A DNA stretch of 34,827 bases from an uncultured Acidiferrobacteraceae bacterium (GTDB lineage Bacteria; Pseudomonadota; Gammaproteobacteria; Arenicellales; UBA868): positions 1 through 34,827 of the forward strand of contig CAJWEF010000010.1 in the NCBI GenBank assembly GCA_913031305.1. The letters are read 5' to 3'. Positions 6,378 through 34,575 of this stretch are shown here, one piece after another (position 1 is the first letter of the stretch; each line of letters starts with the position of its first letter). A program made the position numbers and the translations under genes. The notes beneath the pieces are model-generated. The model was given only the letters and a program-made list of their open reading frames with translations, was not told where the DNA came from and did no database searches.

Positions 6378-6431
6378 CGCGTTGGTGCCTGTCGAACGAA
6401 AAGGGTGTGGATAAGGTGGGGACTGCTTAGG

Positions 6432-6899
6432 CTACATCCCCATCATTTTTTTGACAGAAGGACGGTTATTCATAATAACCTCGACGATCTTATAACCATC
6501 ACCCACCGGGACCGTCAGAAAATCCGCCGTGATCCGATCACCTTTCTCAGTAACCACCTCGGAGCAGACAAAAATAGCGCCATCCTTGTAGGGCACGATC
6601 ATGGGGTGCACATTCGCGCTGTAACCACCGACCAGATCGTTGGTCTGGCGATCGACGAAATAGAACTTGCCTGAATCATCAGCCCGATCTTTCACCCATT
6701 GTGCCAGAGTCATCTGAGCCTTTGCTTTGGTTTCTACCGATACTTCGTCTGCAACCGCTACACCTTGGTACGAAAAAACTATTGCTACCAATAGCGATCT
6801 CATTCCTAAGGACAGTCCTGAACAGGTCGCAGTCCAACATGATTTAAAAAGTAGCATATCTTTACTCCAGAAATTTAGGCCCGATGTAAACGGGCTCAT
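6432..6899 (-). CDS. Small secreted/periplasmic protein of unknown function
   Basis: 155 aa ORF, probably starting at an internal Met; hydrophobic signal-like segment 'MRSLLVAIVFSYQGVAVADE' then a soluble region 'FYFVDRQTNDLVGGYSANVHPMIVPYKDGAIFVCSEVV'. Confidence 0.65.
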   Translation of the reverse strand: MSPFTSGLNFWSKDMLLFKSCWTATCSGLSLGMRSLLVAIVFSYQGVAVADEVSVETKAKAQMTLAQWVKDRADDSGKFYFVDRQTNDLVGGYSANVHPMIVPYKDGAIFVCSEVVTEKGDRITADFLTVPVGDGYKIVEVIMNNRPSVKKMMGM

Positions 6900-6931
6900 G
6901 TGTTTAAGAAACGAGAGTTAAGGATTATTTT

Positions 6932-6958
6932 ACGGGAGGTTATCTCTCGATCTCCCGT
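6932..6958. repeat. 7-bp inverted repeat in intergenic DNA
   Basis: ACGGGAG (6932-6938) and CTCCCGT (6952-6958), 13-nt spacer. Confidence 0.8.
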
Positions 6959-7058
6959 CGCCGCGGCGGCAAAAATGGCTTCTGTCAGCCCTCGGCGAAG
7001 ATATATTATTATTCGATAATGACTCGTCCGGGGCGTAATATACCCTTCTGCCTTTGTG

Positions 7059-7106
7059 GATGGGAAGTTTTTTCGTGTTCCTGCTTCTTAGGAAAAGTTT
7101 CCCATC
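7059..7106. repeat. Nested inverted repeat (two-level hairpin) in intergenic DNA
   Basis: Outer arms GATGGGAA (7059-7066) and TTCCCATC (7099-7106); inner arms TTCCT (7078-7082) and AGGAA (7090-7094). Confidence 0.8.
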
Positions 7107-7165
7107 GTGGATAATATCAACAATAAATTAATGCTTTATTAATTAATTGGAATACTTTCGTATAG

Positions 7166-8929: not shown

Positions 8930-9011
8930 GGGTTAATCTCTAGTCGGCAGCGTTGACGGTTCGTTAGATTTGCTGCACCCCCCGGGCCCCGGAGAGTTTC
9001 GAGAGCCGCCA

Positions 9012-12974: not shown

Positions 12975-13270
12975 ATTTTCTGAAAGTCACGTGGCGTCGA
13001 ACTGGCTAGGAAAAATTAACGGAATTCTCTATTTAAGTCAAAATTATCTCTTTTAGTGTTTTATTGCCTCTCACCGTAACAATCTTCCTATCACGACCAC
13101 TGCTGAAGTAGCAGTTATTTCGAAGAATCTGACTCTTTTTATCAATCAATATCTTACGGATACCTATCAAGAAGAATTCTGCCAGGCGTCCAGCAGCTCT
13201 TTTTCGAGCCCCTTAAAGTGACAATCTCACAGACGGAAGAAATACAGCGGTACCGGCTGAGCCGGCCAGA

Positions 13271-14908: not shown

Positions 14909-14949
14909 TATGCTATTGCCTGTTAGCCATTCTGCTGCGGTGAGGCGAA

Positions 14950-17158: not shown

Positions 17159-17237
17159 GGGTCGTTACCCGGTATGCGGGACACCCCAGCAAAGAGGCTT
17201 TGCACCATGAAAACACGGGTTGCGGTTTTCATGGTGC
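17159..17237 (+). promoter_or_regulatory. Hairpin-rich leader immediately upstream of the GMC oxidoreductase
   Basis: GGGT-CGTT-ACCC (17159-17170); GCAAAG-AGG-CTTTGC (17189-17203); GCACCATGAAAAC-N10-GTTTTCATGGTGC (17202-17237, 13-bp perfect stem), ending about 21 nt before GTG 17259. Confidence 0.5.
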
Positions 17238-17258
17238 CATGATCATCAACTAAACACT

Positions 17259-18890
17259 GTGTCGGAATACGATTACATCATCATCGGCGCCGGATCGGCC
17301 GGCTGTGTCCTGGCCAACCGACTAAGCGAAGACCCGGGTAACCAGGTGCTGATCCTCGAAGCCGGGCCCATGGATCGCAAACTGATGGTGCATATCCCTG
17401 CTGGGGTCTATCACGCATACAAGGATCCCAGCATTAACTGGAACTACCAGAGCGAACCCGAGCCTGAGTGCGATGGCCGGCGGATCGATTTGCCGCGCGG
17501 CAAAGTGATCGGCGGCTCATCTTCGATCAACTCGATGGTCTACATGCGCGGCCACCCGATGGATTATGACCGCTGGGCGGATAAATTCGGGCTGGCCGAA
17601 TGGACCTTTGCGCAATGCCTGCCGTATTTCAAACGTTGTGAATCCTCAGATCGGGGCCAGAGCATCTGGCGCGGTGGCAATGGCCCGCTTGGGGTAACCC
17701 GAGGCACCTTGGAGAACCCGCTTTTTGATGCACTCTATCTGGCGGGAGAGCAATCCGGTCAGGGCAACTCAGACGACTTGAACGGGTTTAAACCCGAGGG
17801 TATCGCCCGTCTTGACAGTACTACCCGCAACGGCTGGCGCTGTAGTGCCGCGGTTGCCCATCTAAAACCCGCATTAAAAAGAGCCAACCTGACATTAACG
17901 ACCAGGGCTCTGACTCGGCGGATCATTATCGAAGGCAGCCGCGCGAGCGGCATCGAGTATGAAAAAGACGGCCAGGTGAGCCAAGCCCATGCATCGCGTG
18001 CCGTCCTCGTCTGCTGCGGTGCCATCAAGAGCCCGCAACTGCTGATGCTCTCAGGGATTGGCCCAGCCGATTATCTAAAATCAATGAACATCACGCCGCT
18101 TGTGAATCTCAGTGGTGTCGGACAGAATCTGCAGGATCACCTCAGCATCATCAGCGCCTTTTACTGTAAGAAAGCAGTGACTTTGCATACCCTGGCCCGA
18201 CCCCTGACCAAACTCAGTACCGGGCTCAAGTGGCTGACTTCACGCTCAGGTCTCGGTGCATCGAATATCTGGGAGATGGGCGGCTTTGTCTATGGCAACA
18301 AAGACGCGGCCCACCCCAATCTGCAATACCATTTCGCGCCGGTATACAGCCAGTGGCAAGGACGACGCATTCAACTCAAACAAGGCTACGTACTGGATTG
18401 TGATCAGTTGCGTCCTAAGAGCCGTGGCGAGGTGAAACTGCATTCAGATGACCCCCATGAGCGTCCAGCGGCGCACTTCAATTACCTGAGCCATCCGGGT
18501 GACACGCGCGAATTGGTAGAGGCTTTGCGAGTCATGCAGGACCTACTGACACAGCCCGCGTTTGATGAATTTCGGGGCAATCGCATCGAGCCTGCGCCGG
18601 ATCTCAACTCAGACAGTGACCTTCAAGCCTGGATACGCGCCTACGCCACAACAGACTATCACCCCTGTGGCACCTGCCGCATGGGCAGCGATGACATGGC
18701 AGTCGTCGATGCGCAGATGCAAGTGCGCGGAATAGATAATCTACGGGTAATCGATGCCTCGGTAATGCCGGATATTGTGAGCGGCAACCTCAACGCCCCA
18801 ACCCAGATGATCGCCGAACGCGCCACCGATTATCTGTTAGGAAAACCGCAACTACCCTCAGAACAAGCACCGTTTCATTTCCAGAAGTAG
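17259..18890 (+). CDS. GMC-family FAD oxidoreductase (choline dehydrogenase/alcohol dehydrogenase type)
   Basis: GTG start 'VSEYDYIIIGAGSAGCVLANRLSEDPGNQVLILEAGP'; 'RGKVIGGSSSINSMVYMRGHPMDYDRWA'; C-terminal 'DYHPCGTCRMGSDDMAVVDAQMQVRGIDNLRVIDASVMPDIVSGNLNAPTQMIAERATDYL'. Confidence 0.95.
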   Translation: MSEYDYIIIGAGSAGCVLANRLSEDPGNQVLILEAGPMDRKLMVHIPAGVYHAYKDPSINWNYQSEPEPECDGRRIDLPRGKVIGGSSSINSMVYMRGHPMDYDRWADKFGLAEWTFAQCLPYFKRCESSDRGQSIWRGGNGPLGVTRGTLENPLFDALYLAGEQSGQGNSDDLNGFKPEGIARLDSTTRNGWRCSAAVAHLKPALKRANLTLTTRALTRRIIIEGSRASGIEYEKDGQVSQAHASRAVLVCCGAIKSPQLLMLSGIGPADYLKSMNITPLVNLSGVGQNLQDHLSIISAFYCKKAVTLHTLARPLTKLSTGLKWLTSRSGLGASNIWEMGGFVYGNKDAAHPNLQYHFAPVYSQWQGRRIQLKQGYVLDCDQLRPKSRGEVKLHSDDPHERPAAHFNYLSHPGDTRELVEALRVMQDLLTQPAFDEFRGNRIEPAPDLNSDSDLQAWIRAYATTDYHPCGTCRMGSDDMAVVDAQMQVRGIDNLRVIDASVMPDIVSGNLNAPTQMIAERATDYLLGKPQLPSEQAPFHFQK

Positions 18891-19835: not shown

Positions 19836-20045
19836 AAACCCTCGTTTTTGCGATCATCGCGCTAAATAATGCTGGTTTGCCCCTAAGGAATATTCAAGGA
19901 TCGAATGGTACAGCAGAACTTTCACTCCAAAGACAGGAGTATGGCCCCGATATTTTCTTAAAACCAGAGATGCCGTGCGAACACCATGGCCTTACAATCT
20001 ATGGGCGCACGATCCCGAAGGGATGCAACAAAAACCCAAGCGACA

Positions 20046-21620
20046 ATGAATATTCTTTTTATCATGTGTGACCAATTGCGGGCAGATTACCTGTCGTGCT
20101 ACGGACACCCCCATCTTGAAACCCCTCATATTGATGCGCTGGCGACGCAGGGGGTGCGTTTTGATCATGCCTACTGCCAGGATCCGCTTTGCGGACCCTC
20201 CCGCGCAAGCTTTTATACCGGGCGTTATGCCTCCTCCCATGGCGTACTGGCCAATGAAGATTCCCTGAAGATTAGTGAACTGACGCTGGGTGATTATCTT
20301 CGTGATATCGATATGCAGACCGTGGTCGTTGGAAAATCAGAGGGGCGCATCAATACCGCTGCTGTATCGCGCTTCAACATCACCAAAGGATCAATGCAGG
20401 AACAATGCCTGCGCAACAACGGGTTTGTCCCTTATGAGCTTTTTACCGGCCTCTACCCTGACCCCATTTTGCCAGCGGATCTGGGTTACAGCGACTACCT
20501 TCGAAGCCATGGACTAGGCGGCGAAAACCCCTGGGAGGCCTGGGCCAATAGCGCCGTCGACAGCAACGGCAAGATTGTCAGCGGCTGGCAGATGCGCAAC
20601 GCCAATCTTGCGGCCCGGGTCCCTGAAGAACACTCTGAAACTGCATTCATTACCCATCGGGCAATCGATTTTATCGACAACCTGACCGCTGATGATCGCT
20701 GGTGTATGCACCTAAGCTATATCAAGCCTCACTGGCCTTACCTGGCCCCGGCGCCTTATCACGATCGCTTCGGGCCCGAACAGGTACTCGCCGCAATCCG
20801 CAGCGATGCGGAGAAGCAAAATCCCCACCCGGTTTACAAAGCCTTTATGGCGCAGGACTACAGCGCAAACTTCTCACGTGATGAGGTGCGCCACACGGTA
20901 ATCCCGACCTATATGGGTCTCATCCGACAACTTGATGATCATATTGGCCGGGTACTGGCCAAGCTGGACGAGAAAGGCCTGAGAGAAAATACCCTGGTCG
21001 TGCTGACAAGTGACCACGGGGATTATCTGGGTGATCACTGGCTGGGAGAAAAAGACCTGCACCACGAGCCCTCGATCCGCATCCCTCTTATCATCAGCGA
21101 TCCCTCTCCTGCTGCGGATAGCACACGGGGAACAGCAGCGAAAGATCTGGTGGAATCAATTGACCTCGTGCCGACTTTTGTCGAGTGTGCAGGCGGTGAT
21201 ATCTGTCCCGAACGCATGGAAGGCTGCTCACTGATGCCGCTTCTACACAAGAGCACCCCCGCCTCGCCCTGGCGAGACTTTGTTGTCAGCGAGATTGATT
21301 TTGGTGATCGCGGCCCACGCACACTGCTGAATATGCATCCCTATGACTGCCGGGCCCGGATCATTCGCACGCAACAATGGAAGTACGTATTGCATGAGAA
21401 ATTTCGCCCGCAACTATATAACCTGCTCGATGATCCCAATGAATTTATCGATCTTGGGGAGGATCCAGCCTATAGCGGGCCTCGAGCGGAATTGCACGAG
21501 ACCCTTTTTGGCTGGCACCGCAAACTTAAAAGCCGCACCGAAGTGCACACAGATGACCTACCGGACCGAGGCCCCGAACGAGACGAGAGTGATTTTGGAA
21601 TTCTGATCGGACGCTGGTAA
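20046..21620 (+). CDS. Sulfatase (alkaline phosphatase superfamily, Cys-type formylglycine site)
   Basis: ATG 20046 'MNILFIMCDQLRADYLSCYGHPHLETPHIDALATQGVRFDHAYCQDPLCGPSRASFYTGRYASSHG' (CxPSR), 'TLVVLTSDHGDYLGDHWLGEKD'. Confidence 0.92.
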   Translation: MNILFIMCDQLRADYLSCYGHPHLETPHIDALATQGVRFDHAYCQDPLCGPSRASFYTGRYASSHGVLANEDSLKISELTLGDYLRDIDMQTVVVGKSEGRINTAAVSRFNITKGSMQEQCLRNNGFVPYELFTGLYPDPILPADLGYSDYLRSHGLGGENPWEAWANSAVDSNGKIVSGWQMRNANLAARVPEEHSETAFITHRAIDFIDNLTADDRWCMHLSYIKPHWPYLAPAPYHDRFGPEQVLAAIRSDAEKQNPHPVYKAFMAQDYSANFSRDEVRHTVIPTYMGLIRQLDDHIGRVLAKLDEKGLRENTLVVLTSDHGDYLGDHWLGEKDLHHEPSIRIPLIISDPSPAADSTRGTAAKDLVESIDLVPTFVECAGGDICPERMEGCSLMPLLHKSTPASPWRDFVVSEIDFGDRGPRTLLNMHPYDCRARIIRTQQWKYVLHEKFRPQLYNLLDDPNEFIDLGEDPAYSGPRAELHETLFGWHRKLKSRTEVHTDDLPDRGPERDESDFGILIGRW

Positions 21621-21974: not shown

Positions 21975-23306
21975 ATGCAGGTAAAGAAAATTGCTGAAAT
22001 GATCAAGAGCGCGGGTATCGATTCCATCAGGGTCGAATTTCCCGACCTGCACGGTATCTGCCGGGGCAAACTGATCCCGGCCGGACGCCTGGAGGCGGTT
22101 ATTGAGGAAGGCCTGAATTTTGCCCAAGCGGCCTATATCGTCGATCTGTCGAACGATATTGCTGTTGCAGGAGGCTGTGGCAGTGACACTGGCTGGTCGG
22201 ACATGTTGCTGCGACCCGACCTTGACACCTTTGCAGTACTCCCGCACCAGCCCCATACCGCGCGCCTCATCGGCGATACCTATCTCGGGGGTAGCCCGCA
22301 CCCGGTGGATCCCAGGGGAGCACTTAAGCGAATACTGAAAAAATACGAGGCGAAAGGTCTTACAGCCATAGTCGCATCCGAGCTGGAATTCGTGATCTTT
22401 CATCCCACTGACCCGGTAACGAGCTACAACCCGGCAACATCCTGCGTATACCAGGTGAACCCCGCTGTGGACAAACAGGGAATCCTGCGGGCCATTCAGA
22501 ACACCTGCATCGACCTGGGGCTGAATATCATGTACCTGAACCACGAGTACTTCCCCGGTCAGTACGAAGTGAACTGGCACCATGAAGAAGCGCTGAAAAT
22601 GGCCGACCAGACTTTTACCTTTAAGTACCTGTGCAAGGAACTGGCGGCACTCAATGACCTGCACCTGACTTTCATGGGCCGGCCAACCAACGAGGGTGGA
22701 GGCAATGGCTATCACACCCATATATCCCTGACCCACACAGAAAGTAACGAAAATGCCTTCTACGATCCACAGGCCGAAAACGGCATAGCAGATTTACAAC
22801 GCTATTTCATCGGCGGACAACTGGCTCACGCCAGGGGAATGTCGGCTCTTCTGGCACCGACCATCAATTCGTATAAGCGCTTCCTGCCGGATTCTTTTGC
22901 CCCGTACAACATCGCCTGGGGTGGTGATAATCGCACCGTCTACTGCCGTGTGCCTGATGACCGTGGCAGCGGAACCCGGATCGAAAACAGGGCCGGCTGT
23001 GCATCTGCAAATCCCTATCTGGTCATCGCTGCCATACTGGCAGCGGGACTCGACGGTATAGAGAACAAGATTGATCCGGGTGCCCCTGCCGACGGCGACA
23101 CCTATCACGATGAATCGGGCCAATACCAGCAGGTTCCGTTCTACCTGCGCGATGCCATTGCGGAGCTGAAGGCAGATACAGTATTAGCTGAAGCATTCAG
23201 CCCCGAGTTGATCAATGCTTTTGTTGCACTGAAGGAAAACGAGGAGTCTCGCTTCAAGACTACGGTCACCGACTGGGAATTCAACGAATACTCCTACCAC
23301 CTGTAG
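21975..23306 (+). CDS. Glutamine-synthetase-superfamily ligase (PuuA/GlnT/gamma-glutamyl-amine synthetase-like)
   Basis: 443 aa; 'RVEFPDLHGICRGKLIPA', 'ASELEFVIF', 'NHEYFPGQYEVNW', 'GNGYHTHIS', 'LAPTINSYKRF', 'RIENRAGCASANPYLVIAAILAAG'. Confidence 0.92.
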   Translation: MQVKKIAEMIKSAGIDSIRVEFPDLHGICRGKLIPAGRLEAVIEEGLNFAQAAYIVDLSNDIAVAGGCGSDTGWSDMLLRPDLDTFAVLPHQPHTARLIGDTYLGGSPHPVDPRGALKRILKKYEAKGLTAIVASELEFVIFHPTDPVTSYNPATSCVYQVNPAVDKQGILRAIQNTCIDLGLNIMYLNHEYFPGQYEVNWHHEEALKMADQTFTFKYLCKELAALNDLHLTFMGRPTNEGGGNGYHTHISLTHTESNENAFYDPQAENGIADLQRYFIGGQLAHARGMSALLAPTINSYKRFLPDSFAPYNIAWGGDNRTVYCRVPDDRGSGTRIENRAGCASANPYLVIAAILAAGLDGIENKIDPGAPADGDTYHDESGQYQQVPFYLRDAIAELKADTVLAEAFSPELINAFVALKENEESRFKTTVTDWEFNEYSYHL

Positions 23307-23383: not shown

Positions 23384-23665
23384 TTGAAAGCCCAGCGGAT
23401 CAGCAAAATCGAGCGCGCAACCCCGGTTACCATTATCGTGAACGGGCAAGAAATCCAGGCCCATGCCGGTGAAAGCATCGCCGCCGCCTTGCTGGCGGCC
23501 GGACAGCGGCAAATCAGCCAGAACAATAAAAGCAGTGCCGCGCGAGGCTATTTCTGCGGAATGGGCATGTGCTTTGAATGCGTGGCTACGGTAGACGGTA
23601 TCCCAAACGTACGTACCTGCATAACAGAAGTGGCTCCTGGGTGCATCGTTGATACCAGTTCGTGA
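23384..23665 (+). CDS. Small [2Fe-2S] subunit (HcnA / opine- or sarcosine-oxidase-associated ferredoxin type)
   Basis: 93 aa from TTG start; 'VTIIVNGQEIQAHAGESIAAALLAAG', Cys motif 'CGMGMCFECVATVDGIPNVRTC' (C-x4-C-x2-C-x11-C). Confidence 0.88.
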   Translation: MKAQRISKIERATPVTIIVNGQEIQAHAGESIAAALLAAGQRQISQNNKSSAARGYFCGMGMCFECVATVDGIPNVRTCITEVAPGCIVDTSS

Positions 23666-25125
23666 TGCCCCAGAAGCCCGACACGACTGAAATTGCCATC
23701 GTCGGAGCGGGACCGGCTGGGGTGGCGGCTGCCGTCACAGCAGCGCGCGCCGGCGCATCAGTGACTGTACTGGATGAATATGCCAGACCCGGCGGACAGT
23801 ATTACAAACAACCAGCACACGCCGACGGTGGACCGACATATCCAAACTCCCTGGCTTCGAACATTGAACAGGGCCGGGAACTGCTGGAGGGGCTGAGTCA
23901 CCCGGGAATTGACCTTCAGTGCAATACGCTGGTCTGGAACATCTCGGCAGATGAACTGGTACTCGATCTGTGCGGCCCCGCAGGTGCACGGGCACTGCAA
24001 GCGCAATGCATCATCCTCTGTGCCGGTGCCACCGAGAGGGTGATGCCTTTCCCCGGCTGGACACTGCCCGGCGTGATCATGGCTGGCGCGAGCCAGCTGA
24101 TGCTGAAAGCGCATGGAATACTGCCCGGAAAAAGGTTCCTGCTGGCAGGAACCGGACCCCTGCTGCAAATCACAGCCATACAACTACTTGAGGCCGGTGC
24201 CCAAATCGCCGCGCTCGTGGAATTGCGTTCACGTACAGAATTTCTTCGAAGCGCCGCCAGCTTATGGCGATATCGAGACAAGCTTGGGCAGGGTTTTGCC
24301 AATCTGCAGAAACTGCTGCAAGCACGGGTACCAATAAAGTTCGGGCACACCATCGCCCGGGCCCTGGGTGAGAACGAAGTTTCCGGCGCCGTGATCATGA
24401 GAGTTGATGGCGATGGCCGACCGATACCAGGCAGTGAAACAACACTTAAGGTTGACACCATCTGCCTGAACTACGGTTTCACCCCTGCTACAGAATTACC
24501 CCGGATCGCAGGCTGTGAGCAGTACTTCGACCAGGACTACGCCACTTATGCCACCAGCACTAATGACAACCTGGAGACCAGCATAACGGGAATTCTTGCG
24601 GCCGGTGAAACCCGCGGCATGGGTGGGGCGGAGGTGGCCGTAATTGAAGGCCAGTTGGCCGGCAGTGTGGCTGCACAACAACTGGGGTTTAGTCCGCCAA
24701 TTGACCAGAACGAGTTATTCGACAAACGGCTACAGGCACGCGCCGTGGCCGCAACACTGGGGAAGATGTTCCAGCTCAAGCCTGGGCTATGTGCGCTGGT
24801 AACCGATGATGTGCCGGTTTGCCGCTGCGAGGAGGTCAGTGCCGGCGAAGTGCGGACGGCCATACGCAATGGCGTGGTGCAGTTAAACCAGCTAAAGCCC
24901 TGGACTCGCGCCGGTATGGGAAGCTGCCAGGGTCGAATCTGCGGTGATATTCTCCGCCAGATCGTGGCATCTGAAACCGGCTTGCCGCTCCAGGACATCC
25001 AGCCTTTTACTGCACGTGCGCCGGTCAAACCTGTGCCGTTGGAAGTGGTCGGCGGCCCTGTTGCTGACACCGGCACACTGACCTGGGAGGATCACGTCGG
25101 TGGATATGGGGTGGCAAGGACCTGA
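23662..25125 (+). CDS. FAD/NAD(P)-dependent oxidoreductase with C-terminal [2Fe-2S] BFD-like domain (HcnB/OoxA-like)
   Basis: 487 aa; 'IAIVGAGPAGVAAAVTAARAGASVTVLDEYARPGGQYYKQP'; C-terminal 'VPVCRCEEVSAGEVRTAIRNGVVQLNQLKPWTRAGMGSCQGRICG'; start overlaps the preceding stop (GTGATG). Confidence 0.92.
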   Translation: MMPQKPDTTEIAIVGAGPAGVAAAVTAARAGASVTVLDEYARPGGQYYKQPAHADGGPTYPNSLASNIEQGRELLEGLSHPGIDLQCNTLVWNISADELVLDLCGPAGARALQAQCIILCAGATERVMPFPGWTLPGVIMAGASQLMLKAHGILPGKRFLLAGTGPLLQITAIQLLEAGAQIAALVELRSRTEFLRSAASLWRYRDKLGQGFANLQKLLQARVPIKFGHTIARALGENEVSGAVIMRVDGDGRPIPGSETTLKVDTICLNYGFTPATELPRIAGCEQYFDQDYATYATSTNDNLETSITGILAAGETRGMGGAEVAVIEGQLAGSVAAQQLGFSPPIDQNELFDKRLQARAVAATLGKMFQLKPGLCALVTDDVPVCRCEEVSAGEVRTAIRNGVVQLNQLKPWTRAGMGSCQGRICGDILRQIVASETGLPLQDIQPFTARAPVKPVPLEVVGGPVADTGTLTWEDHVGGYGVART

Positions 25126-25127
25126 CC

Positions 25128-26846
25128 ATGGCCCACTACCAGGCAGACGTGATCATCATCGGTGGCGGCATCGTAGGCTGCACCACCGCCTACCAACTGA
25201 CCCGTGCTGGAGTTGATGTCCTGCTGCTGGACCGCAATGGTATCGGCAGCGGTGCCAGCGGCCGCTCCGGTGGGGGAGTCCGGCAATCCGCCCGTGTCTC
25301 TGAGGAGATCCCACTCGCCAAAGCCAGCGTTGCGTTGTTCCCGGGCTTATCCGATGAACTCGGAGTTGATATCGAATATGTCCAGGCGGGCAACCTGCGG
25401 GTGGTGGAATCATTCGATTACCGCCGCGCGATGCAGGTAGATGTTGCACGTCAGCAGTCACATGGGCTGGACGTTTCCTGGCTGGAGGTTGCCGATGTGC
25501 TGGAACTGGTGCCCGCACTGCGTTGGCAGAGCATCATCGGGGCAAGTTACTGTCCTGATGATGGTCACTGCAACCCGCTACGGCTGGTAACAGGGTTTTA
25601 TAACAAGGCAATTGAAGGTGGCACCCGTGTGCTACTCAATTGTGAAGTACAAAATATTACCCAGACCGACAGTGGGCTGGCTGAAGTTGAAACGCTCACT
25701 CACACCGCAACTGCGCCGGTTGTTGTTCTCGCCGCAGGCTTTGGCTCACAGGAGTTGTGTTACCGGATCGGCTATGACTTGCCGCTCGCAAATGTCCGTT
25801 ACGAATCGATGATTACCGAACCACTGCCCCCCCTGTTCCGGCAGATGTTCGGAGTCGCAAGCAGCGATCTTTTTTTCCGCCAAACCGGTAATGGCGGCGT
25901 ACATTTTGGTGGAGGCATTCTCGAGGAGACTGGTCAGGAAGATACCCGTACTACCAGCAGCAACTTGCAACTCGCGGTCGCACATATCTCAAAACTGGTG
26001 TCGGATCTTGAAAAAGCCAAGCTGCTTCGCACCTGGGGCGGGCTGGACCCCAGCACTCCCGACGGCATGCCTATCATCGATTTTCTGAATGACAACGTGC
26101 TGCTGGCCTCGGGTTTCTGCGGGCACGGCCTGGCGACCGGGCCGATCGTCGGCCAGCATCTGGCGCAGTGGGTACAAAGCGGTACACGCCCCGAGGCGCT
26201 GGCACCTTTCAACCGCAACCGTTTTGACGGGTGGCTGCAGACCAAGTGGACCCCTTCGGGGTCTTTTGCCGCAGTGCTAGCAACCGAAGATACCCAGATC
26301 GCCGGTGCGGGTGACCTGGAGGCGGGGGTTCCTTTCATGACGCCCCCAAAATACGAAGAGCCGAACGAGCCCTGCGGACAGCCCAAACTCGCAGTCAATC
26401 CGCAGATGTGCACCGGCTGTCGCATGTGTGAGGTCGCCTGTTCCATCGCCCACGAGCAGGTAACAGCCCAGGCTCAGTTGCGCATCCAGGTGGTTTACCC
26501 CAGCGATGAATATTTCCTGCCGATCGTATGCATCCACTGTGAGGAAATGTACTGCCTGAAAGCCTGCCCACATGAAGCAATGGAAGTAAATGAGTCCGGC
26601 GCCGTCACTATCATTCGCGAGAACTGTACCAGTTGCATGGAGTGTATTTTTGCCTGCCCGACAGGCGGAGTTACGCACTCTCCGGCCAGATCAGCGGTGG
26701 TCAAGTGTGATCTGTGTGACGGAGACCCCGCCTGTGTTCGTTATTGTCCCACCCAGGCGATTACCTTTCGTCACATCGATTCACCAGCCGCTGACGAACT
26801 GGCAGCCCTGATGACAACCCACCTGGCGGCCCGAGCGCCGAGGTAG
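25128..26846 (+). CDS. DAO-type FAD oxidoreductase (OoxB/HcnC/SoxB-like) fused to a four-[4Fe-4S] polyferredoxin domain
   Basis: 572 aa; N-terminal 'DVIIIGGGIVGCTTAYQLTRAGVDVLLLDRNGIGSGASGRSGGGVRQSAR' ... 'GLDPSTPDGMPIIDFLNDNVLLASGFCGHGLATGPIVGQHLA'; C-terminal part (about 26382-26846) has 16 Cys in four motifs: CTGCRMCEVAC, CIHCEEMYCLKAC, CTSCMECIFAC, CDLCDGDPACVRYC. Confidence 0.92.
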   Translation: MAHYQADVIIIGGGIVGCTTAYQLTRAGVDVLLLDRNGIGSGASGRSGGGVRQSARVSEEIPLAKASVALFPGLSDELGVDIEYVQAGNLRVVESFDYRRAMQVDVARQQSHGLDVSWLEVADVLELVPALRWQSIIGASYCPDDGHCNPLRLVTGFYNKAIEGGTRVLLNCEVQNITQTDSGLAEVETLTHTATAPVVVLAAGFGSQELCYRIGYDLPLANVRYESMITEPLPPLFRQMFGVASSDLFFRQTGNGGVHFGGGILEETGQEDTRTTSSNLQLAVAHISKLVSDLEKAKLLRTWGGLDPSTPDGMPIIDFLNDNVLLASGFCGHGLATGPIVGQHLAQWVQSGTRPEALAPFNRNRFDGWLQTKWTPSGSFAAVLATEDTQIAGAGDLEAGVPFMTPPKYEEPNEPCGQPKLAVNPQMCTGCRMCEVACSIAHEQVTAQAQLRIQVVYPSDEYFLPIVCIHCEEMYCLKACPHEAMEVNESGAVTIIRENCTSCMECIFACPTGGVTHSPARSAVVKCDLCDGDPACVRYCPTQAITFRHIDSPAADELAALMTTHLAARAPR

Positions 26847-26855
26847 CAAACGATC

Positions 26856-28688
26856 ATGTACCACGGCTATACCGGAAACATTCTGCGGGTCGATCTCAGC
26901 ACGGGTGTTATTAGCAGGGAACTGCTGGATATGCAGATGGCCGAGGACTTTATCGGCGGCCGCGGGCTGGCCTCCCGCCTGCTGTGCCAGGAACTCGACC
27001 CGGCAGCAGATGCGCTTGGCCCGGAAAACCCCCTGATTTTCGGTACCGGCCCACTCACCGGTACCGGTGCACCGGCGACATCCCGTTATGTGGTCGTATG
27101 TAAAGCGCCGCTGACAGGAACTATTGCCTGCTCTAACTCGGGCGGCTTCTTCGGCCCGGAACTCAAGTTCGCTGGATACGATGCCCTGATCATCCAGGGT
27201 GAGTCTGCCGCACCGGTCTACCTCTGGATCGACAACAGGACGGTGCAGATTCGCCCGGCAGAATCACTCTGGGGCAAGTTTCCCACTGAAACAGAGGCGG
27301 CGCTGCGTAGCCTGACCCATCCAAGTGCCAAGGTCGCCTGTATCGGTCCGGGCGGTGAGAACTTGTCGCTACTGGCCGGCGTGGTGAATGATGGTTACCG
27401 TCTTGCCGCACGTAGCGGTGTCGGTGCGCTGATGGGCAAAAAGAAACTCAAGGCTATTGCTGTTCGTGGCACTGGCAATATCAGCCTGCATGACCCACAA
27501 CAGTTCTGGAAAGCCACACTGGACATGTATCAGAAGATAACGGCGGACCCGGTTTCGTTTGGGAGTTTCCGTGCCTATGGCACTGCCAGCCTGGTGAGTC
27601 TGATCAACGAGATGGGAGCGTATCCCACTCGTAATTTTCAGTCTGACACCTTTGAAGGCGCTGCCAACACCAGTGGAGAAGCGCTCGTTGAAGGGATTCT
27701 GCAGCGCAACCGCGCCTGTTTTGCCTGTCCAATCGCGTGTACCCGCGTCTCTGAAGTCAAAGAGGGGCCCTACCAGGGTCGCGGCGAGGGGCCGGAATAT
27801 GAGTCGATCTGGGCGCTGGGCGCCCTTTGTGGCGTTGCTGACCTGGCGGCTGTAAGCAAAGCCAACTTCATATGCACGGACTATGGTATTGACACTATCT
27901 CCACCGGTGCCACCATCGCCTGTGCAATGGAACTGTTCGAGAAAGGCGCCCTACCAGAACAGGAACTTGGCTTCCCGTTGAGATTCGGTGATGCAGGGGC
28001 CATGGTCCGTGCGGTTGAGATGACGGGAAAAAGAGAAGGATTCGGTGATGTTCTGGCTGATGGCAGTTACCGGCTGGCCGTACGCTACGGCCACCCCGAG
28101 TTTTTCATGGGCGTGAAAAAACTGGAGATGTCGGCCTATAGCCCGCGTGTCTTTCAGGGTATGGCACTGCAATATGCAACCTCGAACCGCGGTGCTTGCC
28201 ACGTGCGGGGTAACACTGTCGCTGCCGAACTGTACGGCATCCCCCGCTATCTGCCACCGGAAGTACTGGAGCAGAAAGAAGAAATGGTACGACGCCCATT
28301 CCAGAATTCGACCGCATTCGTGGACTCGACCGGCATTTGTCTGTTTACCAAGTTCGCCATTACCCATCGCGAGATCTGCGCCTTGCTAGCACCTGCCACT
28401 GGGCTTGATTTCAATTTTGACCGCTCGATTGAACAAGGTGACCGGATCTGGAACCTGGAGCGAATGTTCAACCTGCGCGCCGGCTTTACCAGTGAGGACG
28501 ATCGACTGCCACAACGCGTCAGTGAGCCCGCGGTTGACGGGCCTCGGGCCGGTAGCCGGGCCATCCTGCAGGAGCACCTGCAGACCTATTACCTGCTGCG
28601 AGGCTGGGATAAGTCAGGCCGCCCAACACGCGCCAAACTGGAAGAACTGGGCCTGGATGACTGGTGGGGCGTGTGCAGCGACACTTAA
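26856..28688 (+). CDS. Aldehyde:ferredoxin oxidoreductase (AOR) family tungsten-pterin enzyme
   Basis: 610 aa; 'MYHGYTGNILRVDLSTGVISRELLDMQMAEDFIGGRGLASRLL', 'NPLIFGTGPLTGTGAPATSRYVVVCKAPLTGTIACSNSGGFFGPELKFAGYDALIIQG', cluster motif 'CFACPIAC', downstream Cys 'CALLAPATGLDF'. Confidence 0.95.
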   Translation: MYHGYTGNILRVDLSTGVISRELLDMQMAEDFIGGRGLASRLLCQELDPAADALGPENPLIFGTGPLTGTGAPATSRYVVVCKAPLTGTIACSNSGGFFGPELKFAGYDALIIQGESAAPVYLWIDNRTVQIRPAESLWGKFPTETEAALRSLTHPSAKVACIGPGGENLSLLAGVVNDGYRLAARSGVGALMGKKKLKAIAVRGTGNISLHDPQQFWKATLDMYQKITADPVSFGSFRAYGTASLVSLINEMGAYPTRNFQSDTFEGAANTSGEALVEGILQRNRACFACPIACTRVSEVKEGPYQGRGEGPEYESIWALGALCGVADLAAVSKANFICTDYGIDTISTGATIACAMELFEKGALPEQELGFPLRFGDAGAMVRAVEMTGKREGFGDVLADGSYRLAVRYGHPEFFMGVKKLEMSAYSPRVFQGMALQYATSNRGACHVRGNTVAAELYGIPRYLPPEVLEQKEEMVRRPFQNSTAFVDSTGICLFTKFAITHREICALLAPATGLDFNFDRSIEQGDRIWNLERMFNLRAGFTSEDDRLPQRVSEPAVDGPRAGSRAILQEHLQTYYLLRGWDKSGRPTRAKLEELGLDDWWGVCSDT

Positions 28689-28707: not shown

Positions 28708-28953
28708 ATGATCGAAGTCACTGTCAGCCTTAATGCCGGCCTGCGCCGTTACCGGCCCGATCTTGACATTGGCCAGGCACTGCCACTGCACATTCCCAGC
28801 GGGACGAACCTGCACGAACTTCTAATTCAAATACTACAGATTCCCCCGGCTGAAGTCGCCTTCCCGATGGTCAACGGCATCAAGTGCGGCCTGGACCAAC
28901 CGCTGGTGGCCGGTGATCGTGTTGCCCTCTGGCCGCCAGTCGCCGGGGGCTGA
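28708..28953 (+). CDS. MoaD/ThiS-family ubiquitin-like sulfur carrier protein
   Basis: 81 aa 'MIEVTVSLNAGLRRYRPDLDIGQALPLHIPSGTNLHELLIQILQIPPAEVAFPMVNGIKCGLDQPLVAGDRVALWPPVAGG*'; ends in Gly-Gly; 19 nt after the AOR stop. Listed only as part of a longer ORF in the supplied track. Confidence 0.85.
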   Translation: MIEVTVSLNAGLRRYRPDLDIGQALPLHIPSGTNLHELLIQILQIPPAEVAFPMVNGIKCGLDQPLVAGDRVALWPPVAGG

Positions 28954-29145: not shown

Positions 29146-30333
29146 ATGAAACAGACCGCTCGTATCATTTCTTTTAGCGCATCAGTACTGATGCTGATGC
29201 TTGGTACAGCCCATGCCGGATCGTTCGATATCGATGCGGCACTGGCAGCCAATCTCAAAGCATGTAAAGCAGCGCCAACCGGCACGCCGTTGAAAATCGG
29301 CTATGCTGCCGATTTTTCTGATCTCGGAGGATTTGCCGACAAGCCCGCAAGTGAAGCCGGAATTTATTTTGTTGAGTTGGTCAACTGTGCCGGTGGAGTC
29401 AATGGATCACCGATCGAATTCACTGTCAAGAATATCGAAGGTGATCCGGAGGTAACTCAACGGGCCGGGCAGGAACTCGTTGATGCCGGTGTATCCGCTA
29501 TCCTGGGCCCACCGTTCCCGGATTTTGGCGAGCCCTTGCTGCAGGTTACTGCTGGCAAGGTTGCCACACTGTTTGTCGCCTCAACCGAACCAACGCTGGC
29601 TGATGCCTCAGCCATGTCATTCCTGGTTGCCTTTGATGATACGGCCCAGGCTACCGCCGCGGCCAAGTTCGCCCTTGACCAGGGCTGGAAAACCGCTGTT
29701 ACCTTCTCAGCTCCGGGACCTTATTTTGGCTACAACCCTGTCATCTTCACCAAAGTTTTTGAAGCGGGCGGCGGCAAAGTAACATCTGACTACGCCTTCG
29801 TGCCGATCGACGATATGGATTTCTCGGCTCAGGCAAATGCCATGGCGTCTGCGGGTTCCGCACCCGACGTTGTTTACTCGGCCATGCTGTCTTTCCAGAG
29901 CGCCGTGCTGCGTGGCCAACTCGATGGTGCCGGGGTAGAAACAAACTACCTTGTGACTGATGCCTTCGAAGCGACGGGCGGCTATTTCACCAAGGGTGTT
30001 GAAGGCTTCTACCACACCACTCACTCCTTCCCCGCCGAGGGCAGTCGCGTCAAGGCGCTCGCGGATGGCTACGCAGCAGCCCGAGGCGCACCATTGGAGA
30101 ATGCTTCTTTCGGTGGTCTTGCTGTTGATGCCATTGCAGTGATCATCCAGGCGTACTTAACCACTGGCTCAATGGATCCGGCGGTCCTTGGGACTGCGAT
30201 TGGCGGGCTGGATGGGGTCATCGGTGCCACCGGGACTTTATCCTACTCCGGCTCTAACGGATCACCGAGCAAACCGGTATACGTTCACCGGGTCGTAAAC
30301 GGAGCACCTACGCTGGCGGCGACTTACGACTGA
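29146..30333 (+). CDS. Branched-chain-amino-acid-type ABC transporter substrate-binding protein (Peripla_BP_6-like)
   Basis: 395 aa; RBS GAGGAG; signal peptide 'MKQTARIISFSASVLMLMLGTAHAG'; 'LKIGYAADFSDLGGFADKPASEAGIYFVELVNCAGGVNGSPIEFTVKNIEGDPEVTQRAGQELVDAGVSAILGP'. Confidence 0.92.
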   Translation: MKQTARIISFSASVLMLMLGTAHAGSFDIDAALAANLKACKAAPTGTPLKIGYAADFSDLGGFADKPASEAGIYFVELVNCAGGVNGSPIEFTVKNIEGDPEVTQRAGQELVDAGVSAILGPPFPDFGEPLLQVTAGKVATLFVASTEPTLADASAMSFLVAFDDTAQATAAAKFALDQGWKTAVTFSAPGPYFGYNPVIFTKVFEAGGGKVTSDYAFVPIDDMDFSAQANAMASAGSAPDVVYSAMLSFQSAVLRGQLDGAGVETNYLVTDAFEATGGYFTKGVEGFYHTTHSFPAEGSRVKALADGYAAARGAPLENASFGGLAVDAIAVIIQAYLTTGSMDPAVLGTAIGGLDGVIGATGTLSYSGSNGSPSKPVYVHRVVNGAPTLAATYD

Positions 30334-30351
30334 TCCACAGCGGCTGCCAGG

Positions 30352-31068
30352 GTGCTCGATATCGAGTCACTGATCACCCGTTACGGCACCATCACAGCCG
30401 TTCGGGACGTCGGGCTAACCGTTCAGGCCGGTGAGGTCGTGTGCCTCATCGGCCCCAACGGCGCCGGCAAAACTACCCTGCTCGCAACGATTGCGGGTCT
30501 ACTGAAGCCATCGGCCGGGCGGGTCACCCTGGATAATAAAGACGTCACCGGCTGGGCGCCCGATCGAATGCTGCGGGCCGGGCTGGCACTGGTACCCGAG
30601 CACCGCCGAATCTTTTCCGACTTCACGGTCCGCGAGAACCTGCTGGTCGGCGGCGTCACCCAACCGGCCAGTCGGCGACAGGAACTGCTGGATGAAATGG
30701 TTACACTGTTTCCGGTGCTTAAGGAGCGGCTCTCAGCTCAGGCCGGCTATCTTTCCGGTGGTGAAGCGCAACAACTCGCCATCGGCCGTGCGCTGATGAG
30801 TGACCCCGCCGTGCTGCTCATGGACGAGCCATCGCTGGGCCTGGCCCCGGTGCTGGTCGAGCAGGTATTCGACCTGATCACCCGCCTGCGCGTAAGCGGT
30901 CGCACCTTGTTCGTGGTAGAGCAGAACGCGCAACGGATGCTTGCGGTAGCCGACCGGGCCTACGTCATGCGCTCGGGCGAGATCGTCGCTGACGGGCCCG
31001 CCGCACAACTTTCAGCCCGGGAGGATCTGTTTGAAACCTACCTGGGTCAGTCTGGAGGCAGCACATGA
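30352..31068 (+). CDS. ABC transporter ATP-binding protein, LivF type
   Basis: 238 aa from a GTG/TTG-type start; Walker A 'GPNGAGKTTLL', signature 'LSGGEAQQLAIGRALM', 'LLMDEPSLGLAPVLVEQVF'. Confidence 0.94.
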   Translation: MLDIESLITRYGTITAVRDVGLTVQAGEVVCLIGPNGAGKTTLLATIAGLLKPSAGRVTLDNKDVTGWAPDRMLRAGLALVPEHRRIFSDFTVRENLLVGGVTQPASRRQELLDEMVTLFPVLKERLSAQAGYLSGGEAQQLAIGRALMSDPAVLLMDEPSLGLAPVLVEQVFDLITRLRVSGRTLFVVEQNAQRMLAVADRAYVMRSGEIVADGPAAQLSAREDLFETYLGQSGGST

Positions 31069-31952
31069 TTGAACTCATTCAGCAGATTATTGACGGCCTG
31101 GGCCGGGGCGGCATCTACGCTTTGCTGGCCCTGGGTATTGCCGTGATCTTCGGCGTCATGCACCTGATCAATTTTGCCCATGGGGAACTGATCACGGTAA
31201 GTGCCTATACCAGTTACTGGCTTTTTGCCAGCGGCTTCAACTGGTGGTTCATCGCACCAGCGATCATTGTTGTCGCGGTTCTCACTGCAGTGATTATTGA
31301 GTTCGTTGCCTTTCGCTGGGTTCGCGGCGCGCCTGATTTCACCATGCTGATGACTTCCTTTGGTGTGCACTTTCTGGTACAGGCACTGTTCGTGATGTAC
31401 GTATCTGCTAACTTTCGGCAATTCCCACGGCCCGGCTGGATTTTTGATACCTGGCGCATCGGCGACCTCAGTCTGGAGGTATTCGACCTGGCGGTCATCG
31501 CTGCTACTCTGGTGACGCTGCTTGGCACCTACTGGCTGCTGCAACGCACCATGTTCGGCGTCAGCCTGCGCGCCGCTGCCGAGGATTTCGATACGGCCCG
31601 GTTGATGGGTATTCGCAGTAACCGGGTGATTCGCGGCGCTTTCATTCTCTCAGGGGTGCTGGCCGGAGTTGCCGCAATTTTCTGGCTGATGCGCAGCGGC
31701 CAGGCCGGACCCACTGCCGGCCTTAACCCGATGCTCAAAGGGGTACTGGCTGCCTTGATCGGCGGCTTGGGCAGTCTCAGTGGCGCCGTGCTGGGCGGTA
31801 TTACTCTTGGCCTGGTCGAAGTGCTGCTGATCTCCCGCCTGCCCGGTGGGACCGCCGGACTGACCGACGGCATCGTGTTTCTTCTTATCGCCCTGTTGTT
31901 TGTATTCAGACCACAGGGTTTGATCACAGTACGCCGGGTCGAGCGCGTTTAA
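31065..31952 (+). CDS. Branched-chain amino acid ABC permease, LivH type
   Basis: 295 aa; 'GLGRGGIYALLALGIAVIFGVMHLINFAHGELITVSAY', 'GVSLRAAAEDFDTARLMGI'; overlaps the LivF-type gene by 4 nt. Confidence 0.94.
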   Translation: MIELIQQIIDGLGRGGIYALLALGIAVIFGVMHLINFAHGELITVSAYTSYWLFASGFNWWFIAPAIIVVAVLTAVIIEFVAFRWVRGAPDFTMLMTSFGVHFLVQALFVMYVSANFRQFPRPGWIFDTWRIGDLSLEVFDLAVIAATLVTLLGTYWLLQRTMFGVSLRAAAEDFDTARLMGIRSNRVIRGAFILSGVLAGVAAIFWLMRSGQAGPTAGLNPMLKGVLAALIGGLGSLSGAVLGGITLGLVEVLLISRLPGGTAGLTDGIVFLLIALLFVFRPQGLITVRRVERV

Positions 31953-33778
31953 TGCAGACTGACCCCCTCCGGCGCGCTATCGCGCCCACGCTGGGCTCAG
32001 CTTTTCTGTTTCTGTTACTGCTTGGTGGCAGCCTGCTGTACACCGCCAATGGTGATGCTTCAAGTAACAGCCTTGTCACTCAAATGCTGATTAACGCAGT
32101 GGTGGTGCTCGGACTCCAGATTTACATTGGTAATACCGGTGTATTGTCTTTCGGGCACATCGGCTTTGGTGCTATCGCCGGCTACACCTTTGCCATTTGT
32201 GCCATTTCCCCGGAACGAAAACTCCGACAGATACCCAATGCGCCATTTGGATTGGCCGAGATCGACCTGACGCCGCTGCAGTCTGGAATGGTTGCACTGA
32301 CCTTGACCATCATCGTTGCCTTTGTGATCGGACTGGCGCTATCCCGCTCGGGAGCGCGGTCCGGTGCGGTAGCAGCGGTTGTCATCACCCTGGCACTGCT
32401 GTTCGTAGTCCACGAAGTTGCACGCAACTGGATCGATCTGACCCGGGGCGGAAAGACCGGCCTTTCATTCAGCCCGCTCGGCAATGCCACACTGCAAGGC
32501 AAAGTACCCATTTACCTGATCCTGGTGGGGGCGATCGCACTGGCCCGGCTATTCAAGGAAACCCGGGCGGGCCGCCTGGCACAGGCCGCCCGGGAAGATG
32601 ACCTGGCGGCACGGGTCATGGGAATCGATCCTGCAGTACAGCAGATGATCGCGTTGTTATTATCCGTGGCGGTGGTATCTGCCGGATCGGCGCTTCGCGT
32701 ATTTGAACTTGGCAGTATTAATCCACGATTGTTCTTTTTTGACTATACCTTGCTGACCCTGACCATGCTCATCGTTGGAGGTCGCAACAGCGTGGCCGGA
32801 ACCCTGGTCGGGGTATTAATCATTACCGCCGGTAGCGAATTGACCCGCAATCTGTCGGGTATGGATGTGCCGGGCATGAACTGGCTGTTACGCGATGGGC
32901 TGACCGACATCTTCCTGGGCGGTGCAATGCTGGGATTTATGATTCTGCGACCGGCCGGGTTGCTGGGTGACTGGGAAGTGGATCACTGGCTTTACCGGCG
33001 ACTGCGCCGCGCGGAGTCGCCACCAGCACCTTCACCGGTCACTACCGCAAGATCGACATCAGTCTTGCAAGCGGCAAAGGTCACTGTGCATTTTGGAGGC
33101 TACCAGGCACTGGATAATGCCAGCCTGGAAGCAACAGCCGGTGAAGTGGTTGGCCTGATCGGCCCCAACGGAGCCGGCAAGACTACGCTGCTGAATGTAA
33201 TCACCGGCCTGGTTAGATCAGACTCTGGCCGAATCGAACTTGATGGTACTGTGCTCACCGGGTTATCTCCGCATGGCATTGCACGTTCTGGCCTGGCTCG
33301 TACTTTTCAGAACTTCCGCCTGTTCTCCGCCCTCAGCGTACGGGAAAACATTGGGGTGGTACACCTGATGGCGACCCGTTTTCGCCAGAGCCGCTCCTTG
33401 CCGCCGGTCGATACGCTGGTGACCCAGGCAGGATTGTGGGAGCACCGTGATCGACGGGCTGCCGAGCTGGATTATGGCAGTGCGCGGCGGCTTGAGTTGG
33501 CGCGTGCTGCCGCTGCGGGACCGGATTTTTTACTGCTGGATGAGCCGACCAGCGGCATGAGCGACCATGAATCCATCAACATGATCGACCAGGTGCGCTC
33601 GATGGCAGAATTGATCGGAGCCGGGGTGGTGGTTATAGACCACGATCTGAATTTCATTACCGGAATCTGTGATCGCGTCTACGTGCTTGACCAGGGACGG
33701 GTGATTGCGGTGGGAACACCGGCAGAGATTTCAGTGAACCCAGCCGTGCAGGCGGCTTATCTGGGCACTACCGACTAG
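31952..33778 (+). CDS. Fused LivM-type permease and LivG-type ATP-binding protein
   Basis: 608 aa; N-terminal permease 'GNTGVLSFGHIGFGAIAGYTFAI', 'GRLAQAAREDDLAARVMGID'; C-terminal ATPase 'GLIGPNGAGKTTLLNVITGL', 'LDYGSARRLELARAAAAGPDFLLLDEPTSGMSDHE'. Confidence 0.94.
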   Translation: MQTDPLRRAIAPTLGSAFLFLLLLGGSLLYTANGDASSNSLVTQMLINAVVVLGLQIYIGNTGVLSFGHIGFGAIAGYTFAICAISPERKLRQIPNAPFGLAEIDLTPLQSGMVALTLTIIVAFVIGLALSRSGARSGAVAAVVITLALLFVVHEVARNWIDLTRGGKTGLSFSPLGNATLQGKVPIYLILVGAIALARLFKETRAGRLAQAAREDDLAARVMGIDPAVQQMIALLLSVAVVSAGSALRVFELGSINPRLFFFDYTLLTLTMLIVGGRNSVAGTLVGVLIITAGSELTRNLSGMDVPGMNWLLRDGLTDIFLGGAMLGFMILRPAGLLGDWEVDHWLYRRLRRAESPPAPSPVTTARSTSVLQAAKVTVHFGGYQALDNASLEATAGEVVGLIGPNGAGKTTLLNVITGLVRSDSGRIELDGTVLTGLSPHGIARSGLARTFQNFRLFSALSVRENIGVVHLMATRFRQSRSLPPVDTLVTQAGLWEHRDRRAAELDYGSARRLELARAAAAGPDFLLLDEPTSGMSDHESINMIDQVRSMAELIGAGVVVIDHDLNFITGICDRVYVLDQGRVIAVGTPAEISVNPAVQAAYLGTTD

Positions 33779-33816: not shown

Positions 33817-34575
33817 ATGGACTTTTCGGGCAAGCGGATTCTGGTTACTGGATCTTCCAGGGGGATTGGCAGGGCCACAGCAAAAGTGTTCCTGGATGCT
33901 GGCGCACGGGTTGCCATTAACGGCCGTTCACGACAAGCCACTGACAGTGGTATCGAAATGCTCGGTCCGGGTACAGCGGTGGTTGCGGCGCCGGGTGACG
34001 TCAGCGAGGTTGCTGGCTGTGAGGCCGTGGTCAACCGGGCTATCTATCTTCTCGGTGGCCTTGATGTACTGGTGAATTCCGCCGGAGTCGCGTTTTTTGA
34101 AACTATAGAAAACAGCGACGAGACGATCTGGAATTCAACCATAAACACCAACCTGAAGGGTACGTACTTCTGTATCCGTGCCGCCCTGCCCGCCCTGCGG
34201 GCCGACTACGGCAACGTGGTCAATGTGGCCTCCGACGCCGGCCTGCAGGGCGAGACGGGGCTCACCGCTTACTGTGCTTCCAAAGGCGGTGTGGTCAACC
34301 TCACTCGAGCCCTGGCCATGGAGCTGGCACCGGCGGTGCGGGTAAATTGCGTGTGCCCAGGTTATGTCGATACCGATATGGTTCGCCGGGACGGCATCGA
34401 CAAGACCGAGGATCCTGCAGCTGAAGAACGAAGACTGATGAATCTTGCGCCGCTCAAGCGATTTGCCCAACCCGAGGAGATCGGCCAGGCAATTGCCTAC
34501 CTCGCCAGTGCGCAGGCCAGAAACGTAACGGGCGCAACACTACAGATCGACGGGGGCAGTACCGCCGGACAATAA
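33817..34575 (+). CDS. Short-chain dehydrogenase/reductase (SDR, FabG-like)
   Basis: 252 aa; 'KRILVTGSSRGIGRATAKVFLDAGARVAINGR', 'LDVLVNSAGVAFF', 'YCASKGGVVNLTRALAMELAPAVRVNCVCPGYVDTDMV', 'NVTGATLQIDGGSTAGQ'. Confidence 0.95.
   Translation: MDFSGKRILVTGSSRGIGRATAKVFLDAGARVAINGRSRQATDSGIEMLGPGTAVVAAPGDVSEVAGCEAVVNRAIYLLGGLDVLVNSAGVAFFETIENSDETIWNSTINTNLKGTYFCIRAALPALRADYGNVVNVASDAGLQGETGLTAYCASKGGVVNLTRALAMELAPAVRVNCVCPGYVDTDMVRRDGIDKTEDPAAEERRLMNLAPLKRFAQPEEIGQAIAYLASAQARNVTGATLQIDGGSTAGQ

Follow-up and report, generated by a model that had tools for sequence, protein, structure and literature searches.

A single open reading frame in the DNA analysed here, a stretch of 34,827 nucleotides from an uncultured Acidiferrobacteraceae bacterium (referred to as the window), joins a DAO-type flavoprotein to a four-cluster ferredoxin and directly precedes an AOR gene. 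In a preliminary description, this arrangement had been taken to suggest that the oxidation of a C-N bond and that of an aldehyde share one electron conduit. This raised the question of whether the fusion is genuine, and which reactions its product may connect.

Structure and conservation of the fusion gene

The open reading frame (25128-26846, + strand) begins with ATG and is stop-free across 572 codons, and was assigned as a dehydrogenase β-subunit fused to a ferredoxin of the AorA/WorS type. The Pfam DAO profile matched residues 7-348 (25146-26171; E 4.6e-73) and was covered over positions 1-353 of 353, corresponding to a complete domain. A linker of residues 349-418 (26172-26381), with the motif LQTKWTP[S/T]G at 370-378, is followed by the AorA/WorS-like domain of residues 419-549 (26382-26774), which contains 16 Cys residues for four [4Fe-4S] clusters: 428/431/434/438, 468/471/476/480, 500/503/506/510, and 527/530/536/540. 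Similarity to AorA extended over residues 419-551 in phmmer, and several overlapping Fer4-type and 4Fe-4S dicluster models of Pfam matched residues ~462-548. In the PDB, the C-terminal part was closest to AorA of Aromatoleum (8c0z_C, E 4.6e-30), as the initial reading of this domain had supposed, and the fusion occupies the place of the stand-alone AorA gene in ordinary AOR operons, as had also been proposed. The N-terminal part was closest to the β-subunit of L-proline dehydrogenase (1y56_B, E 6.8e-39), and the FAD motif and the GHG motif common to L-proline dehydrogenase were both retained. The earlier label of "oxidase" for this part was not supported, since the closest characterised family consists of dehydrogenases.

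Structure prediction with 11 alignment rows was poor (pLDDT 45), and a model with 49 rows was used. The DAO part was predicted with confidence (pLDDT mostly 85-98) and resembled 1y56_B and the glycine oxidase 4ysh_B in Foldseek (TMt of 0.90 and 0.91, respectively). Beyond residue 368, the model was of low confidence: pLDDT was 31-37 at ~370-410, with a predicted helix at 379-391, and 31-68 in the ferredoxin part even with 49 rows, so that the geometry of the linker was unreadable. The linker is thus predicted to be largely disordered; a direct transfer from flavin to cluster is accordingly invisible in the model, and the fusion could mainly tether the AOR.

When 84,980 species, each represented by one genome, were scanned, 11 further full-length fusions with 55-93% identity were found, a lower bound because the two degenerate patterns used miss diverged copies. 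All of the additional carriers were MAGs: five of the loci were gammaproteobacterial (UBA2133, NP54 with two cassettes, ETNP20, and UBA5680, the last from the same order as the source and a different family), two were from SAR324-type MAGs, and four were from Chloroflexi. In the alignment of the window protein with ten relatives, all 16 Cys residues were kept in 11 of 11 copies, and the linker motif was almost invariant. Against relatives of 93% and 84% identity, the dN/dS ratio was ~0.085 over the gene as a whole; the linker gave 0.11 and 0.08, and the ferredoxin part 0.12 and 0.05, values that indicate purifying selection on the fusion protein, including the junction. The chance that a sequencing or assembly artefact joined two genes is therefore negligible: a missed stop or joined contigs, which had been named as a possible refutation of the preliminary description, are excluded by eleven copies in independent assemblies, the conserved Cys residues, and the selection over the junction. 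The in-frame fusion of 572 residues is accordingly genuine.

The gene is rare and patchily distributed, being found in 5 of 109 genomes in the order of the source and in 2 of the 52 genomes of the SAR324 group; apart from the seed, no copy was detected among 399 sampled Pseudomonadota or among 400 sampled Chloroflexota. The latter 400 genomes also contained no unfused intermediate, namely, separate DAO and AorA genes beside a close AOR. A mobile or viral origin was rejected because viral contigs held no relative of the fusion protein and no plasmid had a match covering 80% of it. Two loci showed peculiarities of their own. The NP54 genome carries its two cassettes on different contigs (L024 on C60 and L026 on C82), of which one only has the Liv importer described below. 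In an Anaerolineae MAG (L040), unrelated genes lie between the α-subunit and the fusion and between the fusion and the AOR, as if inserted (11714-14911 and 5680-9880), leaving 3.2 kb between the fusion and the AOR.

Dehydrogenase subunits and AOR encoded beside the fusion

Two genes just upstream complete a dehydrogenase set. The first (23384-23665, +) encodes a 93-residue [2Fe-2S] protein with a TTG start, similar to HcnA and OdhC (Fer2_4, E 2.8e-25; γ-subunit), and the second (23662-25125, +) an FAD protein similar to HcnB, OdhA, and the α-subunit of L-proline dehydrogenase, with Pyr_redox_2, Fer2_BFD, and SO_alpha_A3 domains (α-subunit). In the latter, a second nucleotide motif (GTGPLL) and the Fer2_BFD cysteines (CRC...CQGRxC) were found, and the four Cys residues and GAGPAG were conserved in eight of eight copies. 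The best PDB matches of the α- and β-subunits, 1y56_A and 1y56_B, belong to one complex, which points to a three-subunit dehydrogenase, and the tandem of γ [2Fe-2S], α FAD, and β DAO genes is that of the opine/proline/HCN-synthase type. At two fusion loci, L041 (at the contig start) and L042, the γ-subunit was not found. By this evidence, the DAO part is the β-subunit of such an enzyme, a relationship that goes beyond the preliminary description; dehydrogenase activity toward a secondary amine or an amino acid is predicted from the family.

Membership in the sarcosine oxidase/MgdABCD family was considered and rejected. The canonical MgdC (Paracoccus aminophilus pAMI6) ends in the folate domains GCV_T and GCV_T_C, and SoxD resides in MgdB. 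Pfam detected no GCV_T folate domain in the γ- and α-subunits of the window, the soxA model (996 positions) was matched at 7-93 by γ and at 169-597 by α only, and no SoxD- or SoxG-type subunit was encoded among the neighbours. Since the γ- and α-subunits lack the folate part, the enzyme probably sets the aldehyde free.

A gap of 9 bp separates the fusion from the AOR gene (26856-28688, +), which encodes a tungsten-type (WorL) catalytic subunit (AFOR_N, E 7.9e-77; AFOR_C, E 3.2e-138), with 9mqx_D (E 9.1e-197) and 1aor (E 4.3e-185) as PDB matches. The cofactor residues of aldehyde-oxidising WORs, given in the text of a recent classification as Thr243, Glu313, Tyr427, and His448 in PfAOR numbering (PMC13328260), correspond to T243, E314, Y428, and H449 of the window protein, which were intact and invariant in the alignment; the cluster ligands Cys 288/291/295/495 were also intact. 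The use of tungsten and the oxidation of aldehydes are predicted from family membership, and MoaA is encoded in the source genome. Whether an AOR gene accompanies the fusion had been proposed as a check, and one did so at 12 of 12 loci in three distant bacterial groups (truncated in L041). These AORs, 70-96% identical among the fusion loci versus 56-93% for the fusion protein, formed one clade (100/100), and their tree agreed with that of the fusion where resolved, indicating that the pair travelled together. A small MoaD/AorD-like protein ending in GG (28708-28953, +; moaD_arch, E 4.5e-4, a weak match below the cut-off) is encoded after the AOR, as at most fusion loci and likewise in AorABC operons. 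The sigma-70 promoter scan, which is uninformative for the source organism, found none in the region.

The nearest unfused AORs, among 400 Chloroflexota genomes, were 51-52% identical, and the two loci examined had the order AorA-AorB-AorC, one with a MoaD-like gene. Although an AorC-like gene was present beside these AORs, none was found beside the AOR at the fusion loci. In the cryo-EM structure of AorABC, AorA conveys electrons from AorB through its last cluster to the FAD of AorC (PMC10413684); with AorC missing, we infer that the flavins of the α- and β-subunits may now be the outlet. On contig C127, the source genome also encodes an ordinary unfused AorA-AOR pair (L028:428-7296), whose AOR is ~45% identical to that of the window and which is followed by genes for the methylaspartate mutase E chain and MutL, an unexpected pairing.

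Pathway context and possible functions

Upstream of the γ-subunit, a GS-III-like ligase is encoded (21975-23306, +; Gln-synt_C, E 1.5e-103), which we propose to be a γ-glutamyl-amine synthetase resembling GmaS. It scored 322 bits against TIGR03105, below the cut-off of 469.6, and was 33% identical to GmaS of P. aminophilus. In seven genomes (G000, G015, G040, G109, G110, G111, and G113), among them that of the window, this gene shares a contig with the fusion, and all of these except G000 also encode relatives of MgsABC there (GATase_6, GXGXG, and Glu_synthase), such that the four domains characteristic of the pathway stand in one cluster. The window contig shows the GS part only: it ends after an SDR gene, before the position expected for MgsABC from G015, in which these genes come after the SDR, and the best MgsC of the source genome is a paralogue of 53% identity encoded on contig C101. 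No GS-like gene was found anywhere in the NP54 genome (G021), and neither GS nor Mgs genes on the contigs of L035, L039, and L044. In P. aminophilus, mgsABC-gmaS together with mgdABCD form the annotated methylamine pathway (PMC4543880). The identities of 33% for GS and 47-53% for MgsC relatives, with a Paracoccus reference from another species than that of the paper, fall far under the published thresholds of >40% for gmaS and >81% for mgsC (PMC5023228); these genes are therefore not called gmaS and mgsC, the pathway is termed N-methylglutamate-like, and the amine may not be methylamine.

The GS gene of each SAR324 locus has close neighbours for S-(hydroxymethyl)glutathione dehydrogenase and S-formylglutathione hydrolase that score above curated cut-offs (L105:4171-6200 and L106:3615-5594), suggesting that formaldehyde arises; such neighbours were confined to these two related genomes. 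Several Chloroflexi MgsC relatives (L042:6493-7893, L108:11346-12749, and L040:2297-3703) carry an N-terminal CxxCxxCxxxCP stretch, weakly matched by Fer4 (E ~1e-4) and missing in the G040 copy, a hint of ferredoxin-dependent N-alkylglutamate synthesis.

Downstream of the MoaD-like gene, Pfam identified an ABC importer of the branched-chain amino acid type (29146-33778, +): LivK (29146-30333), LivF (30352-31068), LivH (31065-31952), and a LivM-LivG fusion (31952-33778). The last joins permease and ATPase in 608 residues, as in the relatives that have the importer. Gammaproteobacterial and SAR324 loci keep the importer next to the fusion, and in Chloroflexi the GS/Mgs genes are linked to a gene for an APC permease. 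The SDR (33817-34575, +) after the importer is shared by none but the closest relatives. Farther upstream lie a gene similar to GMC choline dehydrogenases (17220-18890) and a PehA/choline-sulfatase-like sulfatase gene (19986-21620); as neither gene is conserved at other fusion loci, involvement of the system in the degradation of choline or sulfate esters was rejected. A methionine-γ-lyase homologue occupies the left end of the window (19-1230), and in G015 lies downstream of MgsC (L023:17617-18822), a difference suggesting that the surroundings of the cassette were rearranged.

We favour, with modest confidence, the explanation that the locus encodes a variant N-methylglutamate-type amine pathway, in which a tethered AOR oxidises the released aldehyde and one Fe-S wire serves both oxidations. 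The GS-III-like ligase (with MgsABC in most relatives) would load an amine on glutamate, leading through a γ-glutamyl amide to N-alkylglutamate; the γ/α/β flavoenzyme would oxidise its C-N bond in the DAO part, yielding glutamate together with an aldehyde that may be formaldehyde. The fused polyferredoxin would dock the AOR where the aldehyde appears, and the AOR would convert it to the acid (formate in the case of formaldehyde). The electrons of the AOR would enter the Fe-S wire and most likely proceed to the α/β flavins, which stand in for AorC, where they would join the electrons from amine oxidation. This scheme builds on what the sequences establish (the fusion and its conservation, the subunits, the cofactor residues, the linkage to GS-III/MgsABC, and the absence of a folate domain and of AorC); from these we infer the substrate, the order of steps, the shared electron flow, and the final acceptor, for which no gene was evident at the locus. 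The coupling of C-N and aldehyde oxidation, as proposed before, gains weight from the γ- and α-subunits, the GS-III-like and MgsABC relatives, and the missing AorC, and the wider cluster resembles the N-methylglutamate pathway, which had not been noticed earlier.

The fusion may instead serve only to hold the AOR beside the aldehyde-producing dehydrogenase, capturing a toxic aldehyde while electrons exit separately: those of the amine via α/γ, and those of the AOR via the ferredoxin domain to a soluble ferredoxin, in the manner of Class II. The low predicted order of a linker of ~50 residues agrees with this, and the Class II WorLS enzymes, as described in the classification text (PMC13328260), use soluble ferredoxin; furthermore, opine dehydrogenase reduces dyes and cytochrome c, not NAD(P)+ (PMC4575208), so that its electrons can leave at a higher potential. 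A mere tether, however, would not need a nearly invariant LQTKWTP[S/T]G motif, an FAD protein is the usual docking partner of the terminal cluster of AorA, and a separate AorC is absent here; we regard this explanation as rather unlikely. That same absence could also mean that the DAO part has lost its activity on amines and, together with α, acts only as the flavin outlet for the electrons of the AOR, which would then be the real enzyme. The DAO part is positioned where AorC would act, and the AOR is the best-conserved protein of the set. On the other hand, the retained FAD and GHG motifs, the full γ/α/β set, and the GS-III/MgsABC linkage indicate an amine substrate, and DAO proteins are not known to act as NAD reductases, which leaves this replacement of AorC improbable.

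The chemistry itself may differ from that proposed, with an imported amino acid derivative or opine as the substrate and the GS-III/MgsABC relatives merely handling nitrogen. An amino-acid-type importer (Liv or APC) adjoins the cluster, the dehydrogenase is homologous to opine, proline, and hydroxyproline enzymes, and the GS/Mgs genes are missing from three of the contigs, as described above; however, the AOR requires an aldehyde, whereas the known cleavage of opines yields a keto acid, and the SAR324 loci are adjoined by formaldehyde genes. We consider such a substrate a possible, if unlikely, alternative to an N-alkylglutamate. A bolder form of the shared wire, in which the complex is a flavin-based electron-confurcating enzyme, is doubtful: electrons from the aldehyde (~-0.5 V) and higher-potential electrons from the amine would merge in the α/β flavins and pass to a single acceptor whose potential lies in between, for example NAD+. 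If this were true, the complex would represent a new WOR class, with C-N cleavage and aldehyde oxidation performed as one machine.

Comparison with known systems

The locus consists of known enzyme types in a new arrangement that is real and conserved. No description of a DAO-ferredoxin fusion, consistent with the earlier supposition, and none of an AOR with N-methylglutamate genes, was found in a non-exhaustive search of open-access papers; the sole paper that mentions both DAO and ferredoxin terms (PMC5023235) concerns separate loci, not a fusion. In the latest WOR classification (4,064 sequences in five classes; Putumbaka et al. 2026, PMC13328260), the main text mentions neither such a fusion nor amine-related neighbours, and a physiological role has been assigned for only 5 of 92 WOR clades. 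With WorS fused to an amine dehydrogenase, genome context indicates where the aldehyde probably comes from, making the role of this AOR directly testable. If the favoured pathway is correct, it would be an oxygen-sensitive alternative to the capture of aldehyde by folate in amine breakdown (the carriers include a MAG from an oxygen minimum zone) and a new wiring of two redox reactions through one Fe-S relay, and the five-class scheme would be extended.

Judged by those main-text descriptions, the locus fits none of the five classes. Like Classes II and IV, it combines WorL with a four-cluster subunit of the WorS type and keeps all cofactor residues, but it has no separate WorS gene, the four-cluster domain being fused to DAO, and the text on Classes I-V describes no WorS fused to an amine-oxidising flavoprotein. 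The WorABC bifurcation genes described there for Class IV and the membrane/cytochrome subunits of Class V were not among the window neighbours. AorABC of Aromatoleum aromaticum (8c0z; PMC10413684) is similar in that a WorL-type catalytic subunit stands beside a four-cluster AorA protein, with a MoaD-like gene nearby and the order AorA-AorB-AorC-MoaD in ordinary relatives. In the window, by contrast, AorA forms the C-terminal portion of a DAO flavoprotein, an opine-type dehydrogenase set takes the place of AorC, and the catalytic subunit has closer relatives in 9mqx_D and 1aor than in A. aromaticum AorB.

The γ/α/β genes are encoded together as in OdhABC opine dehydrogenase, D-hydroxyproline dehydrogenase, HcnABC, and archaeal L-proline dehydrogenase (PMC4575208; 1y56), from which the window differs in the 200-residue ferredoxin extension of the β-subunit and the AOR that follows it. 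With the N-methylglutamate pathway of P. aminophilus pAMI6 (PMC4543880), the locus and its relatives share the clustering of a GS-III-like ligase, a glutamate-synthase-like trio (GATase, GXGXG, and FMN), and a DAO dehydrogenase. They differ in the distant GS and MgsC sequences, in a dehydrogenase of the opine type that has neither a folate domain nor the MgdB and MgdD subunits, and in the addition of an AOR.
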